Part shown: positions 2,614 through 64,000 of the stretch, in pieces | Layout of the letters: the number at the start of each line of letters is the position of its first letter | How positions within the stretch are numbered: the stretch's first letter is position 1 | NCBI GenBank assembly: GCA_021014325.1 | Contig: CM037463.1 | Coordinates: 7,199,001-7,263,000 of the forward strand | Direction of reading: 5' to 3' | DNA from: Plazaster borealis | Taxonomy: Eukaryota; Echinodermata; Asteroidea; Forcipulatida; Labidiasteridae | Length of the DNA: 64,000 bases | Translations under genes and position numbers: made by a program | Notes under the pieces: generated by a model | What the model saw: the letters and a program-made list of their open reading frames with translations, nothing else | Told to the model about the DNA's origin: nothing | Databases searched by the model: none

Positions 2614-3172
2614 GGGGAAAACTTGAAATACACTCTACACTGTAATGACATCAACGGTGCTGGTTTGACGGTATGAGATACAAGATCCTCATTTTACTTT
2701 CACACAAACGGTACGGGACTTCGTCAAGTCTAAACCTGTTATTTGTCCCATTGGGCAAGGACCAGAAGATACACATGAGGTATGGGTTCAGGAGTCAATG
2801 TATCAAGGAATGTGATAACAAAAAATTAAAATAAAATAAAAATTTGACCTACCTACAATGCAAGACTATACATACATGCACGCGTGTTAACGAAACATGT
2901 GTTCGAGACCTCTATTTAATTAGCTGTAAATTTGAACATAATCACGACGGATTGATTATTTGATTGATTGAAAGAGTCTAATTAATGTGCATTGTACAGT
3001 TGCTCAATACAATGTAAACATTACATGAACACGCATACGTGCCAACATGTACATCACATCCGACTACTGTGGATAAAAGTACACATGCAGGATGCAGCTA
3101 GTAGCTACATGTACACACACTAGAATTCATGTACATGAACGAGGCAAAATTATTTTTTTAAACATTAACTAT

Positions 3173-3560
3173 GTCTCCTGACGATGACCAGAGCAAGCTA
3201 GTCGAAACGTTGAGACCTATTTAGACTCACTCCGCGTCAGTGTAGTTATTAACGAGAAGTCCCCCCGATCCTCATAGCGAAAGTAGTAGTCCCGTCCGAT
3301 TTCCTACCTCCCGCCCAGGTAGTAGTTAATAAGAAGGACAGTTCTTTTCAGAACTGCGAAGTCTCCCGAATTCCAAATATTCTACTCTGCGGAAGTAGAA
3401 TAATATAGCAAGACAAGTTCTCATAGAACAAAATTTACCTAGCAAGTAGATTTAAGAACTGAGAAGTCCCCCGAATTCCGAATATTCTACTCTGCGGCAG
3501 TAGAATAATAAATAAGCAAGACAAGTTCTCAAAGAACAAAATCTACCTAGCAAGTAGATA
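3173..3560 (+). repeat. Hammerhead-bearing dispersed repeat, copy 1
   Basis: The repeat starts with the hammerhead-like core (3173-3216) and continues with GAGAAGTCCCCCCGATC, CCTACCTCCCGCCCAGGTAG, TTCTTTTCAGAACT and AAGTAGATATACACATGG. A unit of about 110 bp (ACTGCGAAGTCTCCCGAATT ...) is repeated twice within it. A second copy lies at 58610-58905. This gene-less layout with hammerheads suggests a Penelope-like or retrozyme-like element end. Confidence 0.6.
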
Positions 3561-5551
3561 TACACATGGTGTTACCGCAAACCAACTATTGTTTATCCCC
3601 ATTCATTTTCTGTACTGTGTTTACTGTTCCAGAGTGTTTGACCCTTAACAGCACATTTATCTCACCCTCTCTGTTCGAAACAGTGTCCAATTCTCTTCAA
3701 ACAAAATGCTTCTGGGTAAGGCCTGAAATTACATGGAGGCCATGCAGGCCATGGAGGCCATGCCCTCTGTTGCCCCCAGTCTTTGGCTTGGTGCCCCTTC
3801 AAAAGTATCCCATAGACTTTAACATTTTCTAATGAAAGGAGCCCTTTGCAAAATGAAAATGGCCTTGCCATCTCAAAGATGAAATTCCAGGCCTGCTGGG
3901 TGACCACTTGCACAATGCACAGCGCACAACGCGCAGCGCACTTACACACGCCTATTCTGTCCGCCATTTTGGGAGTCAGAGTGTAAACAAAGGAATTGAC
4001 TCCCCAAATGGTGGAAATGGTAGACGCGCATTGTGTGGAGGTGCGTTACGCGTTGTGCAAGGGGACCTCATTTATATCTTCTGCACTAATTTAACAAGTT
4101 TGTAAAACACAAACGAGAATACAGACTTCTTCCATTTAAAGACAAAAATCCATCCCACAGGGAAAAGTTACATTTCTCTTGATTAAGAATCATACATACT
4201 TGAAAGTTTTATTAGAATCTCCAATAACAAAATCAAATGCCACTACTCAATTTCATTCTCTAAAATCTCTCCAGGTTGTACATGTACCTAAAATATGTAT
4301 GAAAAGTAAATTTATCTAGGCAATACACACCCCTCAGTAAACAATTACACATTTCCAGAATCTTTGTGCGTCCCAAAGTAACAATACTCAATAAAGAAGG
4401 GGGGTTCCACAAAATCAAGAAAAAAATACATTACCTATAATTCTTTGAAGGTTATTAATTAAGTTAAAACTGTAACGCTTTCAATGGCCAGGCAGAAGAA
4501 AAACAACCAGTAATTAGGTTTCTTTTCCCGCCTCACTATTTGCAGGAGACCCTTTCATCGTCGCACGAAACCTCTCCAGGGCTTTCAAATAAGATGGGGG
4601 CTTGCTTTTAGTGCATCTCGCAGGACAACTAGACGAGGCGGCATTATGAATCACTGGTCTTATCAAATTTTCGTTTTTTGGGGGGGAGGTAGTCATCATT
4701 TCAATAATTATATATTAAAAAAAAAATTGAGCCAGTCGGTAAAATCCCTCCTAAATTTAAAACCCCAAGGGGCGGCTGAGTCATTTGCTAATTGTTGCTG
4801 CCAAGCCGCAATCTCTCTCCCTCCCATCTCCCGACCTGAGCTTGGTGATAGTATCTGTTTCAAGTTTACGGTTGGTTTCAGTATATGGAATTTCTAAAAA
4901 AAGACTGGTAAATTTCATCAGCAGATTTACTAGATAAAGAAGCTGAGAGAGCTTTACTGGAACTCAAGTCATTCATTCATTTGGCATATTAATATTTGCA
5001 TAAAATGGAATTTATTAATTTTTTCCACTGAAGATTAAGTGTGTCCAAATAAATTCATTCGAGCAGGTGTTTTTTTTATTACTTTCACAAGTAATGAGTT
5101 TTCTTGAGATTTATTGTTAGCCAGAAGTTTAGATTGTTTTATATTTATATATTTTGTTACTTTTCAATTGTATTTATTTATTTATTTTAAATTCATTTTT
5201 AAATTTTTACTATTATTATTGTTATTATCTTACTTTATTCATTTCCTCTCTTTTTTTCTTCTTTTTTTTCCTTTTTTTTTTGGGGGGGGGGGATGTTCTA
5301 TGGAGGTTCTGCTTCAAATTTTGAAATCATAATATTTCTTTTGTTTTAATAATGTTCTGTATGAGCAATTTTGAATACCCCCCATGTTCCAAAATGCGAG
5401 CCCAATATCTGCCTCCTGGCTACAGCCAGAAACATTAGATGTCAAATCTTTGTCTTCCGAAAAAAAGGGAATTTTCCCCCAAAAATTCAAACCGAAACAG
5501 GCCTGAAACATCAAGGAAGGAGGTAACAGAGGCAATTGCCTCCATGCAACT

Positions 5552-5744: not shown

Positions 5745-8700
5745 AGCTCTACAAAACTGTTGCACAGCATATATAGCACCATGTACCAATTTACATTCAG
5801 TACATACATTGTTTCAGTACTACAGGCATGCAACTGCAGTTTTTCAAAAACAGGAGAGTGCCAGGCGCAGCATGACTTCGTACGGTGTTTTTCAAATTTC
5901 AATGGCGCGACTGAGAAACCAAGAACGAGGAAATCAGCTGATCAGCTGAAAAAATGCAAGTCTGACACTAAAAACTCCTCATAAAATTCATCAAGATTAT
6001 TTCTTCATTGTAAAAACTGCTTCAAAATCATAGTGTGCGTCTTTCCCAGAGTAGTTCGGATGCAAACAGCATGCGTTTTGTTGGGAAGATACATGCATTT
6101 GGCGAGTTTGTTCCTGATTTTATAGCCATTTTAAACTCATAGTCATTTTAATTAAATTATGAAATTTCAAGTAAACATCCTCAAAAATGCACTGAGCTTC
6201 GAGCACAGTAAAGATCTTACAGCACTGAGCTTATAATTAAATTCAAATTCAGATTTATTATTTTAAATTTTATTTCCAGCTTTTAAACGTTTCAAATGGC
6301 GTACCTTATCTTTAAGAAGCCAAAGTCAGGGATCCATATGGCGAACCTTCAGCCCGATAATCCCCACGTCAGCAACCAAAATAACACCATAAATCACCAA
6401 ACAGATTCAGCCAAACTAAACTCTCACGGTCAACAGTACGTGATCACATAGGCAGAGCTCCTCAGATTCAAGAAGAGAGCGAGAGAAAAAAAAAAAGACA
6501 AGACGAAAGGGCTCTGTTTTCACTGAAAACACTTCACACAGGCCATCTCCAGATGAATTGATGGACGAGGTAAGACGCTGGTAAGATGCTGCTCCTTATC
6601 CTCTTCGTTGCATCCAATCACTGCACCTGAGTGATACACACTAGACCATCCTTCCCCCCCTGTGCAGATTCTCTCAAGACATTTTGTTTCTTTCAACTTG
6701 ATTTCACTCTAACAAGAGGTGATCTCAGGGTCTAGGTACATTAACTACACAATGGCTCGTGTCTTTTGTGGTTATCGTTTTCCCCTGGTTCTTCATCCCC
6801 TCTGATGTTCATGATCCTTATTGATTTTAAATTATATGAGAAATGTCCGGACGAGTCATGCAAAGAAAGAGAGGGGGGTTAAGAGACTTTTACAAGGGGT
6901 TCGTGCTCGCACATTCGTCGGGATCCTGGTTGCATTTCAATTGTTTTCCAGCCCTGTGGCTATTAAACCTACTGCCATGATTGCACTCGATCTGTGCGGC
7001 ATCGTCCTGCGTAATTATTATTTTCTCACTTGGGAGGGTTTAGGGCTACGGCTGCTGATAAATGCAAATTTCTGTCGGGGGGGATCTCTAGAAATTAACA
7101 AATTAATCCAGTTACTGTGTTAAAAGAATTGGATTCACTTTTCTCTGTGGGATTTTATCACCTATGATCTTCTTGTGTGTGGGAGGAGGAGGGGAAGAAT
7201 TTGATGGTGAACATGTAAATTTGTAATTCTGGATTTGCTGGTTATGGGAGAACTGTCGACGAACCGGCATCCGAGTTGTATGAATTGTTTGCATCCAAAT
7301 TGCTTGTTTGAACTCAAAAGGAAAATAACGCAGATTTAAAATCAGGAAGATCAAATACAGTCTTTTGTAATTAAAGGTTATCACTTCAGGATCAGAAACT
7401 GAGACATCTTCCAATGTGTTAATGAGGACTGATCTTTCAGTGTAACGTACATTTTGAGCTCAAGAAAAAATATGTGTTTCAAACTAATTATCTTTTTGCA
7501 AAAACGTTTAATGCCCTCTTTTTTTTACAAGAGGGTTTTCCCCAAAGGCACATTTAGACTTTGAGAAAGACTCTACTCGGGTAGACAAATGAGGTCATTA
7601 ACAATGTGTGTATTCAGTTCTATTTTGATGTATTATGTCAGACACGGTATTTCTTCCCAATGCAACTTGATAAAAACTATAAAACATGCTGTTGCACATT
7701 CTTAAGTGTATGCGTGTTCACAGACTTCACAGGGAAAGTGTTTTCTGTCAAATGTCTGTGGGTTATCATCAAAGTTTCTTCAATTTTTAAATTTTTTTTC
7801 CCCTTTAAGGTAGGGTCATCATTTGTTTTTTGTCAACGTAATGCTGATTTATAGGCAAAATTATCAACAAAGATAAAATGTAAGTCACCTGTGAAAGTTT
7901 CAGTTAAAACAGTGTCTACTTGGTGAGAAAACAGCGAAAACCTGTCACAGTATTTTCATCAAGAACATTGAATCCATCCACGGGTACAACAGCATCTCTG
8001 GCCGTATTGAGGGCAGCACTTAAACGGACACCGCACAACTTTCAAAAAGTCGCCTACAGGGGATCTTGGGAGATATTTTTAAACATACTTTTATTGATTT
8101 CTAATTGACAGGGGGCACTTCAGAGTCAGACAAAATATTTTTGCAGAATACTCACTACCATTACCATCTTTATAATAGGTAGGCTTTCAGATAATAATTA
8201 AACATTTTTTTGGGGGGGTCAGTACCAAGATATGAACCTACCTTCAAAATGTAAAATACAACATTTTAAAAGGAGCTGGAGAGTCTATATAGGCTATGCA
8301 TTGAGAGAGTGGAACTCAATGAAAATAAGCCGCAGTAGACTCAAGAAATAAGCCGAGGGAAACCAGTACGGAAGAGAGAAAATTCTATTGAACCTAGAAT
8401 CAATATTAACAGAGACCACAGTCTGAATTGGTCTGGCATTGACCCAGACACCATTACTATGTACATACACAAAGGTCAAGGTGTTGAGAAATGTGCATTA
8501 CGCCCAGTTTCATGGATAAGCAGGGCCGTATATCGTAACACTGTTAATGTACAGTAGAAAGGACAAGGTGCAAAATTTGAACAAACCGAAAGGAGGTTTT
8601 TTGCAACGGAATCACTGTACAGTCATATTGTCATGTCACTCAAATTTTGTCTGCAATAAACCCATTACATGATGTAACTTGCTAACACTAACAGCATTAT

Positions 8701-27914: not shown

Positions 27915-29877
27915 ATGTTTGAAATTTATTTTTAAAAAAAGTCACATAGAAATGTAGTTTCACAGCAGACTTTATGATTATGTCTTGTAGCTTTAAGGGT
28001 TTTACAAGTACACATCCACATTGTGTCTGTATTAATAAGTTACAGATACTATACTAAGCTAGTGAACATTAGTAATCATCTCTATAGGCCGGTTTAATGT
28101 ATGCTTTTAATATCGGCCGACGTGGCCCTGCCCATTCATCAGTGTTTTCATTTTATTTCAATTACGTGTACCATGTTATAGATGGGGACATCTCTAATGG
28201 TGCGTGCAGTGAGAACAAGAAGAAAATTACAACAGGCTACAAGTAATAGGATCTCAGTGCCAATGTCTATTCTCAGACTGATATTACCGCAATTGATTTT
28301 TTTTGTCCCCGCTGTGTGTGTACACTGGATACAGTTCGCACAGTGTTCTTAATTGTCAATTAAAGGGATCGTACACCATTGTTTTGTTTTTTAGAAGCAA
28401 CACATGTATCCAAAAACATGTTCACAATTCTTTTTGGGATTGTATGCTTACATGTAAGTTTTCAGTAAATAAGCAATGTCTAATGGCCACATTACATAAA
28501 TTTGAATAAATTCTCTTCAGTTACTGCAAGAAAAGAGAAAATTTTAAATTGAATTAAAACTCAGTTCTCCCTTGAAAAACATTAATCCAGAGGTTGGGAT
28601 TCAAATCTTGCTCTAGTATACAATTTGTCTTCGTTCAACCTACCTCCTTGGTTCAATTAATCTTCAGTTAAAATCACCATGTATTCAAATGCCTGATTAT
28701 TGTCAAACAGTGACAAGTTTCTGACTGACAGAAATATATTTTGCTAATATTTTTTGAGCACAATTTTATGCTCATATTTTAAGGTAGAATTTACAAATTA
28801 ACATTTTCAAATGTGTACATCACATGTTGTTATACACTCAATTATCACAGGAAACAAACCACAGGGTACATGTAGGCCTACAAGATTTCTACAGAAAAAA
28901 TTTTGGACAAAAGTAAATAATTTGTTTTACATCACACTCGAAAATGCGTCATCGTGTTGTCTATAAATGTCATCTTTTTCTATCTGAAAAATTCTAAGAT
29001 GATGTCTTTTGTGTACATCAAGTGATGCACGTTAATGGTCACACAGTCATCACGTTCATCCGTCATTGACGTTAATTCGCATTCCATTTCCTCTCTCTGG
29101 GGGGGACTCCATTTCTCTTAAGATTTCATTTCCAGGAGCAAATTTACATCTCCCATCTGCAGGAATTTTAATCATACCCGAAGCAGGGTGCTGGCTGGAT
29201 ACTTCATGTTTGGACAAATATCTGGAAATGCTTTTAATGCTCCCCGTGGGTGGATGTAACCTCCCCCGCACCCCTCCCTAAAAGAAAAGAGAACAAATGA
29301 AACGGAGTTTGGTAATCTGTTTGGCTTTTCAATCAGTCTATTTCAATTTAGACTAATTAATTTGTCCATAATCTGGATTTAGGTCAGGTCACTCTGGTAA
29401 TGTAATTTTTTTAATCTTGTGTGCGTTGGGTTTTGTCATTGTTTGATCTTTTTACGTGGTTCCTGCACTCTGCTTAATTGCTTCAAGACAAAACAATGAT
29501 ATGATCTTAATAATTTATTCACTCTCTCGTGTTTGTTCATTTTGTTAATTTATGTGCGCTGCATCTTTGTTTGTCGTATTTTTATGAAGTGTTTTGTTGT
29601 TGTTGAAGGAGAGCTACATGATAAGGACAAGAGCTTACATGTACAGTGCATGTAAGGCATGCTAGGTCTGTAAGTAATGAATGGACACGTAAACGCCATA
29701 ACACATTTAGCCTTCGCTCTGGCCTCTGCCATTCCTGGCTTTGTCTCCACAATAAGAAATGTCTTGCCTAAAACGAATCCTGGTGTTCTAATTTTGGTCT
29801 GATTGTTGATGTAATTGAATTGATGAAATAGAATTAGCTGTTGCAAACTGCTGACCAACCAAAAGGACCTATGGTAT

Positions 29878-29990
29878 AAATGCAAAAAATAGTTAATGGG
29901 CTGACGTTTCGACCCTAGCAGAGTCTTTCTTGAAGGCTAAAGCGAGAAAGACTCTGCTAGGGTCGAAACGTCAGGCCATTAACTATTTTT
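29878..29990. repeat. GAAACGTC foldback element
   Basis: Two nearly perfect arms, each containing GACTCTGCTAGGGTCGAAAC and ending at GCC(A)TTAACTATTTT, face each other around a short loop (about 29930-29943). Relatives lie at 44533-44645 and at 63950-64000, the latter cut by the window edge. Confidence 0.7.
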
Positions 29991-30773
29991 TGTAATTGAA
30001 TTGAATGAAAAATATCAGTTCTCTTTTACTTTGAGGGGAAGTGGCCTTGCCCAACCTTATGAGAATATTGACTTATAAAAACCCCCTGATGTACACATGT
30101 ATGACAAGTTGTTAATTTATGATTACAAATACAAATTTAAAAATGTTTTACTACAGTTACAGTACAATTTTTACCCGGCTCAAACGCAAGTTGTATTGGA
30201 TCGATGATGATACATTGTACGATGACAAATTTTGTGTAATTTGTTCGAAGTGCATTGTAATTCATGTTTTTCCAAAGTATCACCTGGCATACACATTTCA
30301 TCCCCTTCGTTATCAATTGGGTTATGTGTTAAAATTGAACAGAACAAAAAAGTGCAAGCCCCCGGGGTGTGTTGCAGCTGTTATGACAAATGTAAAATCC
30401 CCCCAAACCCGGTAAAGTTTCCACTCTGAGATTCTTGTCTGTAGATCCAAAGCTGCGATTATTCCGATGAACAGCTAGCGCAGCATTCGGCAGACTTTTG
30501 TACTTATAATAGATCTCTGTTTGACTGGAAAGGAGAAGGATTGGAAGGGGGTGGAAAGAAAGAAAAAGGTTAGCCAGTGTGGTTAAAGATGTAGTGTACA
30601 GTTGATACATGTATGTCTCTAGGTTTTATTTTATTTTTTTGAAGATAGGAGATGTGGGACAAAGGTAATCAAATTCATCCATGAAGCTCAACAAGGCCTT
30701 CGATTATACACTGTATGTAAACTGTGCCGGCATTTAATACAATATATTGATTCATTTTTTTTAATTTGAGGCC

Positions 30774-44532: not shown

Positions 44533-44645
44533 TTATAAAAGAAATAGTTAGTAGCCTGATGTTTCGTCTCTAGCAGAGTCTTTCTTAAAAGTTTTCAAGA
44601 AAGACTCGGCTAGGGTTGAAACGTCAGGCCACTAACTTTTTGTTG
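44533..44645. repeat. GAAACGTC foldback element, second copy
   Basis: AAATAGTTAGTAGCCTGATG to GTCAGGCCACTAACTTTTT, the same arms as 29878-29990 with several substitutions. Confidence 0.65.
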
Positions 44646-45133
44646 TATTAATTATAATACCATAGGTCCTTTTGGTTGGTAAGCAGTCTGCAACAGCTAA
44701 TTCTATTTTCTAATTATCCATTTTGCAAAAATGTTTTTGGCAACACTTAGAATAGTGTATGGTTTTTTAAAAATATAGGCTAATTGTTTGCTGTTTTCAT
44801 AATAATAAAAATAGCCGTGTTAGTCTGATGAAGTAGTTGATTGCTACGAATGCTCATGCAGTTTTTTTTATATAATTAGTTATTCTATAAGTGCTACCAC
44901 TATCTTCCTTGTTATTTTCATATACAACTGCAGTATGTACACATGTAATTTACACGCTTTCCATTGAGTAAATTTCTTGACATACTAAGTGGTTATGTCT
45001 GACCCATACATGTATTGGAAGTCACCAGTGTCAGACTGTCGGGGGGGGGGGGGGGGGGATATTGTGTAAACATTGATGATGAATATTGTGAATTACATAC
45101 CAGATGTGCATTACCAATGCAGAATTATCTGCC

Positions 45134-53493: not shown

Positions 53494-53625
53494 ACAAAAT
53501 AGGGAGACCGCCAACATAGGGCTAGATAGCTCAGTTGGTAGAGCGCCGGCACGTTAAACCGGAGGTCGTTGGTTCAAATCCCGCTCTAGTCAATTTTTCT
53601 TTGTTCAACCCAAAATTATTATCTA
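53494..53625 (+). repeat. SINE family 1, best preserved copy, in intron 2
   Basis: The tRNA-like part is 53519-53592. Box A is TAGCTCAGTTGG (53527-53538) and Box B is GGTTCAAATCC (53571-53581). The anticodon stem CCGG/CCGG flanks GTT. The acceptor pairs at six of seven positions, including one G-T wobble. It is followed by TTTTTCTTTGTTCAACCC, as in the other copies. It ends a short distance before the acceptor of exon 3. Confidence 0.75.
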
Positions 53626-53678
53626 TCATGTCTATAGCACAGGGCCTAAGAAAACATACTTTCTTTATTTATTTGCAG

Positions 53679-53875
53679 GTGGCGGAGGGTGGACAGCGGG
53701 CACCAGTGACCTGGAGCAGTATCTGACCATTGACCTAGGGAGCGTTGCAGAGGTTACCGGTGTGGCCACGCAGGGTCGTTACAACACAGACTACCACGTT
53801 CAGGAATACAAGGTGATGTTAAGCATGGACGGCCGCGATTGGACAACTTATAGCGATGATCAAGTCACTGATAAG
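53679..53875 (+). CDS. Exon 3: core of discoidin domain
   Basis: The acceptor TTCTTTATTTATTTGCAG ends at 53678; the donor GTAAAT is at 53876. The exon encodes residues 70-135. It begins GGGWTAG, then LEQYLTIDLG, which is the signature beta-strand of F5/8C domains. Next come VTGVATQGRY, matching the ATQGRY of contactin-associated proteins, and the EYKVMLSMDGRDW segment typical of the family. It ends in phase 0 at Lys135. A tRNA-like SINE (53519-53592) sits in intron 2 only 86 bp before this exon. This is the best conserved exon and the best anchor for identifying the gene. Confidence 0.93.
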
Positions 53876-54600
53876 GTAAATTCCTCAGCTGTCTGCAATA
53901 CTAAGTGTTTAAGCCGCATATTTTCCCTGCTAGAGTTTCAGAGTGGTGTGCATTTTGTATTTTGGTGTCACATCAGATGATCCATTTGGTGCTCGATATG
54001 TGGCATGATGTACCCCCCCCCCTCCTATTGTGTCTTCATTGTGTTCTTGGAATCTTAGGAATTCTTCAGAGAATTTTAGGGGGTACTTCTGTACAAGAGG
54101 AAAGAGTGTTAAAGTATGGGTTCATATGGGGGGTCACCCTCCGCCACACATCGGGCATGGTGTAAGATGACCGGAATGAAGGCCGCATGTACTTTACACT
54201 ATGGAGCGTAGTCAGAGCATGCACATTCCCCCCATGCAACACTTTGTTTCATCCACACAAAGAAGATAGTTGGTGGTGGAAAAAAAGTGGTAAAATTCTG
54301 CCTTTGTGCTGGGGTTATTGTGTAGTCCTTAATTCCAGGCCTTTGTCCTGTTATTGCAAGAAGAGGATTACGTGGCATCGAGAGGCTTCCATCGTTTTAT
54401 ATCATTTTATTTCGGCATAATGGAGGTAAGTCCGAGCGGATTGTGATTCCAGCCTTGGTTCCGGTCATGGGCCCAATTGGCGGCCGTGTCTCACAGCCAA
54501 GGTTTTGCTGTTCATGGTTCGTAAATATGGTAGGCCTATTATCTTGAAAGAGAAACAACAAATTCCTTTGCTTTGGACAGAATTTCTGTTATCTTATGCA

Positions 54601-57643: not shown

Positions 57644-58151
57644 CTATTGGACCTTACCGAAAGTGACATACAGTAGTTTCTTTTCCTGAAATGCTTTTGA
57701 AATGTAGTGGGCACAATGGTAAAATGCCCTTTTTTGTCTTCAACAACAAAATAAATATATAAATGCCAGTTGTGATAGGAAGTGTCTGTATACAGCAATT
57801 GATATCCTCATTATTGCACGATAGAGTATCTATTATTTTTAAACATTTTTTTCTTCTACTTTCATATGTCGATGAACTTGAAAAGTTTGTATTCCCATAG
57901 TTGCCAATTGAATCTTGACTACATACATGTATGTTAAAAAGAAACACTTTGGAACTCTCATATTTACTGATAGCTGATCTAAAATATGTGGCCAATGTGT
58001 TCCATTGCACTTTGCAAATGTTGGATTGTGTGTGTGGATTAATGTTGTATTAAATGTCAAGTTATTATGACACACTTCCAGTTTAACCTGGACCATAGCA
58101 CTATGATTACTTCTGCTTTCACTTCTAGTATCGATTTTTCTATTTTTACAG

Positions 58152-58355
58152 ATACCGCCTCCTTTGATGGGAATACCTACATCAAGTATGACGTCACCAG
58201 CCCGCCCAATCACATCCAATCCTACGAGGGGTTGTTCCAAGCGCGCATCAGGACGACGCAACCGGACGGAGTCCTCCTGGCGGGCGTCAGCAAACAGTCC
58301 GACTACCTCTTCATCCAGATGAAGGGAGGCAAGATCGTAGTGGGCATTAATCTTG
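58152..58355 (+). CDS. Exon 5: first part of laminin G domain
   Basis: The acceptor TTTTTCTATTTTTACAG ends at 58151; the donor GTGAGT is at 58356. The exon encodes residues 183-250 plus one base. SFDGNTYIKYD and YEGLFQARIRTTQPDGVLLA are the first two strands of a laminin G domain, where a Phe or Leu strand precedes R-T-x-x-x-x-G-x-L. DYLFIQMKGGKIVVGINLG aligns by eye with the corresponding strand of vertebrate CNTNAP LamG1. Placement directly after a discoidin domain, with no EGF repeat between them, is the CNTNAP/neurexin IV arrangement. The exon ends in phase 1; the next exon lies beyond 64000 or was not recognised. Confidence 0.9.
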
Positions 58356-58609
58356 GTGAGTACACAGGAGTTATTTTCTGAAGTTTTTGTTTTTTGACAG
58401 TGATCATGGCTGCAGTTTTCTAGTTGGTAGGTGAAATTAATAACTGACACAATCCAGTACACAGGGTGCTCACAAACAATGGGCAGCCTACTCATTACTT
58501 CTGAGCCCACCAACTACAGTTCCCCTTTCGGAAGAACCAATCAGAGCAGTGCTGGCTCTACACTAAAAAACCTCTGAATTTCTATAAAGAGACCACCATC
58601 TCAAACACT

Positions 58610-58905
58610 CTTCAGTCTCCTGACGATGACTAGAGCAGGCTAGTCGAAACATTGAGAACAATTAAGAACTCACTCCACGGCAGTTAATAACGAGAAGTCC
58701 CCTCGATTCACTGAGCGAAAATAGTAGTCCTGGCCGATGTCCTACCTCCCCAGGTTGTACTTAAAGAGCAGTACAGTTCTTTTCAGAACTAAGTAGTCTC
58801 CCGAATTCCGAAATCTTCTCCAGCGGCAGTGGAATAAACAGCTAGACAAGTTCTCAGGAACAAATCTACACAGCTAAGTAGATAAATACACATGGCGTTA
58901 CCGCA
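58610..58905 (+). repeat. Hammerhead-bearing dispersed repeat, copy 2
   Basis: Colinear with 3173-3560 but with a single copy of the inner 110-bp unit, ending at the shared TACACATGGCGTTACCGCAA. It lies in intron 5 in the same orientation as the host gene. Confidence 0.6.
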
Positions 58906-59126
58906 AACAGAATGTACATTGATACCTCACCATGCAATGCCTCAAAACCAATATAAAATAATTGCTGATATTTTATTCAGTCATGCTGTTGTCTACATTT
59001 TTAGCTCTAAGAGTACTGTCCCAAAAGGTCTTACCAAAAGGTGGAAATGCCATCATTTCAACACGTCTCCTAATACTTGGATCCTAGTTTCAGACCTTTT
59101 GATCAGCAACGACTCTCACCCCTGTC

Positions 59127-63441: not shown

Positions 63442-64000
63442 TAACAGATAAGATAAGATTTGAATTATGGAACTCTGAAATCTTTCCGCCCCAGAAACGG
63501 ATCCTCATATCTAGGACTTCACAGTATTTTGAAAGTGAAGGGCCTCCAGGGCTATTTATGTGAAGAGGCATCTTGCATCGTACAGTTGACATACATACAG
63601 CATTGGTTATACTCTGAATATTTGTTAATAAGATCCTGACATACCTTGTCATGGATGATAGGGGGGTCACGCTGTGAATTACCAGGGTGACCTTTAACTG
63701 TACCAGCAGGATTTATTCTTCGTAGAGGCAATTGCCTCCATGCCCCCTGGTCATTGCCTTGGTGCCCTTTGAAATGTTCTAGTAGAAATGTAAATTTCCA
63801 TCAAAGAAACATGTTCCCTTTACTAAGGAACATCTTCCCTGCCACCACATCAACCAAGCATTAATCCTGTGCCAGTGTATTTTGTTCCTCGTTTGTAAGC
63901 TCAACTGTAGTAAAAAGATTTGTTTTCTTTACTCAATTTAAATCAAAGAAAGCCTTCGAGAAAGACTTTGCTAGGGTCGAAACATCAGGCCAGTAATTAT

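Follow-up and report, generated by a model that had tools for sequence, protein, structure and literature searches.

A minimal hammerhead motif at the probable 5' end of a starfish Penelope-like element transcript, and a histone-type stem-loop behind it in families B and D

The stretch of starfish DNA analyzed here (64,000 nucleotides, hereafter the window) carries a short motif resembling a self-cleaving ribozyme, which raises the question of what kind of element it belongs to and whether it cuts the RNA of that element. The original prediction described a near-complete type I hammerhead core in a dispersed repeat at 3173..3216 of the forward strand, and reading of the window letters confirmed the motif and its layout. 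Stem I (GTCTC/GAGAC, 3173-3177/3212-3216) is paired at 5/5 positions and is followed by the core CTGACGA (3178-3184), an inserted T between core and stem II (3185), stem II (GACCAG/CTAGTC, 3186-3191/3198-3203) enclosing AGCAAG, then GAAA (3204-3207) and CGTT (3208-3211), with the predicted cut between 3211 and 3212. The stem II mismatch noted in the prediction (C.A at the fourth pair) is present in this copy, hereafter copy 1, but is restricted to some copies of the family. A descriptor search revealed copy 2 at 58615..58658 on the same strand, with a perfect stem II (GACTAG/CTAGTC) and flaws of its own: its minimal stem III, owing to GAAACATT, contains a C.A, and it reads GAGAA. The two copies have 228 of 282 alignment columns in common and their match begins exactly at the first G of stem I. 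Judged from its letters, this is a type I hammerhead motif of the minimal kind, having a stem III of two base pairs and one inserted, mostly pyrimidine, nucleotide.

The descriptor (5-bp stems, at most one mismatch in each, G.U allowed, both strands) matched the window at these two places only, and the same descriptor produced 4 matches in 150 simulated 64-kb windows. With a perfect stem I required, one match remained in the window and none in the 150 simulated ones. The looser pattern of CTGANGA, a gap and GAAAC was not significant by itself (2 found in the window versus 0.63 expected). The Rfam hammerhead models gave no match at the gathering score over the whole window and nothing at E≤10 for 1001 or 55 bases around copy 1, literally the outcome that the original prediction had named as speaking against the motif. 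Rfam hammerhead models probably expect a longer stem III, and we therefore gave this result little weight. In its minimum-energy fold, copy 1 has the core paired to the CGTT letters and does not adopt the hammerhead; stems I and II are both present in the corresponding fold of copy 2. An open stem I (GTCTC/GAGAC) is accompanied by a NUH cleavage triplet, GUU in family A and GUC in family B.

Searches of the 560.6-Mb assembly, in which repeat counts may be lower bounds, returned 957 matches (481 + 476) to the exact-core pattern CTGANGAN{14,24}GAAACRTTGAGA and 0 to the reversed pattern, as expected of the predicted dispersed repeat. Among the 100 matches listed, 93 were of standard length, and every one of these 93 had one extra nucleotide separating CUGANGA from stem II (83 with T, 8 with C and 2 with A), so that what had been taken as unusual in the original prediction turned out to be the norm of the family. 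One or two inserted nucleotides at the same place are tolerated in known hammerhead alignments, according to the available part of PMC10085705. All six stem II pairs were standard in 78/93 of the same copies. Pair 1 occurs as G-C, A-U or G.U, pair 3 as C-G, U-A or G.U and pair 4 as U-A or C-G, and stem II thus changes in a compensated way across the family rather than decaying without compensation, the other outcome held to speak against the motif. The inserted pyrimidine could also form a pair, keeping that register, with the G of GAAA.

Because the exact-core pattern itself fixes the core, copies were also picked by their 3' sequence, which had 1152 exact matches in the genome (control 0). 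Of the 100 matches listed, 75 were examined: contig 1 contributed all of its 52, and contig 2 another 23. In 34/75 the 5' end lay at or before offset 3; 25 of these 34 were gap-free over the motif, all 25 carried the T insert and 13/25 had exactly the commonest sequence. The extra T is therefore the norm in this set as well. Among the majority sequences of three subfamilies (22 copies), 43/44 hammerhead columns were identical, compared with 236/307 over the whole unit.

On the strength of its linkage and promoter motifs, the repeat is the pLTR of a Penelope-like element (PLE). At locus L009 an open reading frame ending in ..QSSD* is followed by a promoter and then by the hammerhead unit; the promoter is interrupted, with an inverted-repeat insert of ~590 bp with ends CGTCAGCAATTTCACGAAGGGCC lying inside it (L009:1381-1967). 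The L009 protein had 1990 matches at E≤0.001. The highest-ranking named matches are from Asterias (86-87% identity), and on these PLE matches the host is probably a starfish of asteriid type. The domains RVT_1, GIY-YIG and PF26215 are represented in the top matches, although Pfam found no match in the L009 ORF itself. Within the genome the protein had 124 matches (115 of 1099 candidates scored), from which 20 ORF 3' flanks were taken. All 5 flanks with 82-97% identity run into CCCCTATAAAT.., the hammerhead region and the same hairpin, with the core deleted in one of them (L157). This linkage of ORF, promoter and repeat, at L009 and in 5/5 close flanks, supports the predicted short-stem-III type I hammerhead of the Penelope kind. 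The hallmarks of a PLE were found in linkage to an ORF with RT and GIY-YIG, pLTR promoter motifs, inverted and solo copies, target-site duplications and an optional tail.

Within the window, copy 1 heads a solo PLE leader of family A (3173..3583, forward strand) that would extend from the putative transcript start to the first reverse-transcription start site (..GTTACCGCAAACC). It contains an internal 105-bp duplication (3346-3559) and a conserved hairpin CAGTTCTTTTCAGAACTG (3339..3356, forward strand), which corresponds to the histone-type stem-loop present in families B and D, and is bordered by the 6-bp target-site duplication AACTAT at 3167..3172 and 3584..3589. Copy 2 belongs to a pLTR at 58615..58949, also on the forward strand, which comprises a leader to ..GTTACCGCAAAC (58908), an optional tail ..CTCACCATGCAATGCCTCAAA and the hairpin CAGTTCTTTTCAGAACTA (58774..58791). 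This copy keeps the last ORF codons and the stretch behind them, ..CCAACYACAGTTCYCCTTT..GAAGAACCAATCAGAGCAGTG.. (58500..58560; compared with L009 by eye), as well as the promoter with TATAAA at 58583..58588. It lies behind the second of two stretches (53558-53977 and 58043-58378) in which we found exons encoding F5/8 type C and laminin G domains; their best PDB matches were neuropilin and neurexin, and they perhaps belong to a contactin-associated/neurexin-IV-like gene. Pfam detected these exons, and no RT or GIY-YIG domain, among 10 window ORFs, and tblastn of 120 PLE proteins against the window and loci gave no match in the window. No PLE match was found in the upstream 2.4-2.5 kb of four promoter-bearing family B copies. 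Exact unit patterns were absent from viral and prokaryote contigs (0 matches), and blastn in phage records returned 0. A predicted PLE-like protein of another source (P0015) matches with its N-terminus the strand opposite the hammerhead in L008, L014 and L038, as expected from a head-to-head inverted pLTR before a PLE ORF.

We then considered where the transcript begins and where its copies end. By eye, TATAAA begins 31 nt before the A of the initiator-like TTCA|GTCTC (TTCAGTCTC in the window) in window copy 2, L008 and L153. Among the 75 copies picked by 3' sequence, of which L068 and L069 are one duplicated locus, 20 have their 5' end at offsets -6..0. A further 12 reach offset -10 or further upstream, counting one mis-set inverted case (L020) and four short extensions (L094, L100, L011 and L076). 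The remaining 5' ends fall at offsets 2-3 (2 copies), 5-26 (9), 36-41 (4) and 46-154 (28), and an inverted piece of the element adjoins the start in 16/75. The predicted cut, offset 39, coincides with the 5' end of a single copy (L096), and 2/75 begin at offsets 38-40. No peak of copy ends was seen at the cut site, with 4/75 at offsets 36-41 versus 37 at the other 144 positions of 5-154, and any excess there is at most weak. Flanking matches were scored in 31 copies without a promoter end, 12 of 43 being set aside and the 43 including hammerhead-picked copies; a match of at least 8 was present in 14/31 versus 3.5% of permuted pairs. In nine copies (L001, L002, L004, L013, L026, L049, L077, L087 and window copy 1) a flanking match of at least 6 ends at the initial G of GTCTC or on the preceding base. 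The 3' ends form two classes, after GCAAACC(AAATAT) or after a tail with ACCATGCAATGC; the tail occurs in 34/87 rows, some inverted and unrelated-array rows included.

From these ends we infer that the hammerhead makes up the first ~44 nt of the transcript. Copies that begin at the transcript start carry the whole hammerhead, and their template RNA was therefore uncut there. Most templates of the 3'-picked copies were uncut, with 20 copies at the start versus 2 within 1 nt of the cut (n = 75), and solo copies appear to be cDNAs made on uncut mRNA, with priming at its leader/ORF junction. The account that we consider probable places a minimal hammerhead at the 5' end of the PLE transcript, where it cuts only a fraction of the molecules, and adds a histone-type stem-loop in families B and D. 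A TATA/initiator promoter in the pLTR would start the RNA at the first base of stem I or one base before. As the copies show, reverse transcription begins at either of two leader/ORF-junction sites and runs to the 5' end or stops short, giving rise to leader-only solo copies such as 3173-3583, many with target-site duplications. Cutting, which would remove a 39-nt leader, may take place in a fraction of transcripts as dimers or with the help of a PLE protein, in the manner described for other PLEs. The stem-loop that immediately follows the hammerhead in families B and D would form or stabilize the 3' ends of PLE mRNA.

Three other explanations were weighed against this account. Chance resemblance to a hammerhead could draw on the lack of an Rfam match and on the loose pattern, which alone is not rare, yet the simulated windows (4 loose matches in 150, 0 with perfect stem I) and the compensated stem II variants within and between PLE families leave it next to inconceivable, and it was rejected on these two grounds. 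An animal retrozyme, which the original prediction had mentioned beside Penelope-like elements, would be a small circular-RNA element that comes in tandem, bears a type I hammerhead and lacks an ORF; this label fits the size of the leader-only copies (~300-400 nt, with type I hammerheads; 170-400 nt in the published range given in the excerpted text of PMC7229834). These units, however, are the pLTR of an ORF-bearing PLE, their stem III is minimal and the two window copies lie 55 kb apart. Moreover, among 20 long loci (L009-L028) paired hammerhead copies occurred in L023 and L026 only, in opposite orientation. A head-to-tail tandem arrangement without ORF linkage was thus not what we found, and the label proved wrong; a retrozyme origin is very improbable.

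A stronger competitor holds that the shape of the hammerhead persists in the leader for structural or protein-binding purposes, for instance for binding by a PLE protein or for shielding of the 5' end, with cleavage dispensable or lost. The copies, which start at the transcript start rather than at the cut (20 versus 2 of 75), agree with it, as does the U4-to-A change in 10/10 readable cores of the abundant D-type family. The accessible part of PMC11167929 reports that a PLE of Anolis inserts without cleavage in vitro, its hammerhead being protein-assisted and not needed for insertion there; the same text has published PLE hammerheads cut once protein is added, which counts against a purely structural role. 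So does the conservation in family A, in which the best-kept columns (43/44) include those of the cleavage triplet and the catalytic letters, a degree of conservation beyond the needs of a simple stem-loop. We regard this structural reading, with cleavage dispensable or lost, as rather unlikely and prefer that of partial cutting.

The D-type core bears on the role of cutting in its own right. CAGAAGA was found in 10/10 readable flanks (of 12), in the position where family B has CTGAAGA. The change falls on what we take to be U4 by standard hammerhead numbering, and it should impair cutting in D-type elements. Together with the 5'-end data, it weakens the view that mobility needs cutting.

Directly behind the hammerhead, family B carries a second structured signal. 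The family B joint has 389 exact copies in the genome (control 0), and the family reads ..GAAACGTC-GAGACCACACC-GGCTCTTTTCAGAGCC-AACACTCCTCCC-AAAAGAGATTT.., to be compared with GGCTCTTTTCAGAGCC-ACCAC..-AAAAAGAGATT at the ends of the host H2A (..KKTAKAAK*) and H2B (..AVTKYTTSK*) genes, named from their C-termini. All 16/16 stem-loop letters agree with host H2A/H2B. The exact purine motif AAAAGAGATTT follows within 26 nt, at about the same spacing, in 19/30 B places with a hammerhead remnant immediately upstream (11 are without it) and in 4/5 host histone ends. Since 20/26 B loci were picked by the exact stem-loop, they are no measure of its conservation. Among the ORF flanks, the three with 50-51% identity (L148-L150) are B-type with a compensated stem, GGTTC/GAACC, located ~75 nt after a putative stop common to all three, and the other 12 (56-63% identity) are D-type, with GGTTCTTTTCAGAACC in 8/12, variants in L152 and L142 and two flanks ending before the site.

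Scores of the Rfam Histone3 model (RF00032, gathering score 34 bits) were 41.0 and 39.8 bits for host H2A and H2B, 37.4, 37.4 and 26.8 for the three D-type flanks scanned and 30.1 in 3/3 B ORF flanks; among solo B copies L005 reached 31.3 and five further loci 18.4-31.4. The D-type signal thus exceeds the gathering score at its best, and B remains below it. Most B copies have AACAC after the stem, compared with ACCAC in the histone signal, and in the older PLE copies L128, L129 and L136 it is ACCAC or ACCAT that comes after the stem-loop. The hairpin of family A, CAGTTCTTTTCAGAACTG, keeps the loop and has two compensated pairs relative to B. It begins with an A-U pair, and the Histone3 model found no match in it (61 bases, E≤10) or in the A-type loci L001 and L008, so that reading it as a histone stem-loop is unsupported.

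These features hint that starfish PLEs took over the host histone mRNA 3'-end system, with a functional stem-loop and a U7 target behind the hammerhead in the pLTR, a proposal that we put forward tentatively and judge slightly less probable than its negation. The stretch that may pair with U7 under this proposal is AAAAGAGAUUU. If it is true, PLE mRNA would be non-polyadenylated, SLBP-bound and made in S phase. The second reverse-transcription start site would then be lost when the downstream pLTR is processed, and the abundance of leader-only solo copies would be accounted for. Retroelement families endowed with a histone 3' signal would follow a polyA-free mRNA strategy, and a telomerase-related retroelement would be linked to S phase.

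Cervera and De la Pena in 2014 and Lunse and colleagues in 2017 have reportedly described minimal hammerheads in PLEs. The motif agrees with these in its type I layout, the lack of a real stem III, the site in a PLE pLTR and the many copies in an animal genome; a possible difference is that here CUGANGA and stem II are as a rule separated by an extra nucleotide. The element PAc of Anolis similarly has two adjacent reverse-transcription start sites and an optional tail, but its ORF begins at stem II (PMC11167929, in the part available), whereas here the motif occupies the probable first nucleotides of the transcript and the ORF starts ~300 nt further on. Elements of the Penelope/Poseidon type in Adineta vaga share the pLTR with TATA and initiator-like motifs, solo and inverted pLTRs, target-site duplications and the optional tail; the available portion of their description (PMC3846280) contains 0 mentions of a ribozyme or stem-loop. 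Animal retrozymes resemble the unit in their type I hammerhead and small repeated unit (PMC7229834, excerpted text), and differ from it in that it is not tandem, resides in an ORF-bearing PLE and has a minimal stem III. The B and D signal, in turn, differs from metazoan histone signals in its location in a retroelement behind a hammerhead.

Hammerheads in PLEs are known, and both the insert and the position at the transcript start may already be in print. The histone signal in PLEs is seemingly new within the open-access literature, where no description of a histone 3' signal in a PLE or other retroelement was found, most subscription papers lying outside that search; in the accessible text of a U7/SLBP review, Ty1 was the only retroelement mentioned. 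The start, end and template use of PLE transcripts are poorly known. As many natural copies put the transcript start on the hammerhead's first base and came from uncut templates, the purpose of the PLE hammerhead becomes directly testable.

Several further repeats were encountered. Family B forms head-to-head inverted pairs in L029, L030, L035 and L136, in which a tail..stem-loop..hammerhead unit and its mirror image are joined near the hammerhead 5' ends. A different ORF-bearing sequence in L130:1101-1560 and L137 (G000:C2, C7) carries the same histone stem-loop with ACCA and a AAAAAGAGATTTT or AAAAAAGTGATTTT stretch behind it; Pfam finds nothing in its ORF, and it may represent a second element, or else a host gene whose 3' end is of the histone type. 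In L020:1500-2500 an array of ~77-bp units, ..TTACCACAAACCTCTCTAGATTG..CCACCATGCAAAGTTTCAAATCC.., repeats in tandem the PLE leader/ORF junction that belongs to one more family. In the window, a repeat with ..GACTCTGCTAGGGTCGAAACGTCAGGCC.. is present at 7562-7613, 29876-29994, 44540-44652 and 63957-64000, partly as head-to-head inverted pairs (29876-29986 and about 44558-44639), and resembles the 3' half of a different hammerhead family, with the CUGANGA half missing or degenerate. Finally, two tRNA-like sequences at 970-1042 and 53520-53592 of the window, contained in a 99-nt repeat with 86% identity, are probably tRNA-derived SINEs.
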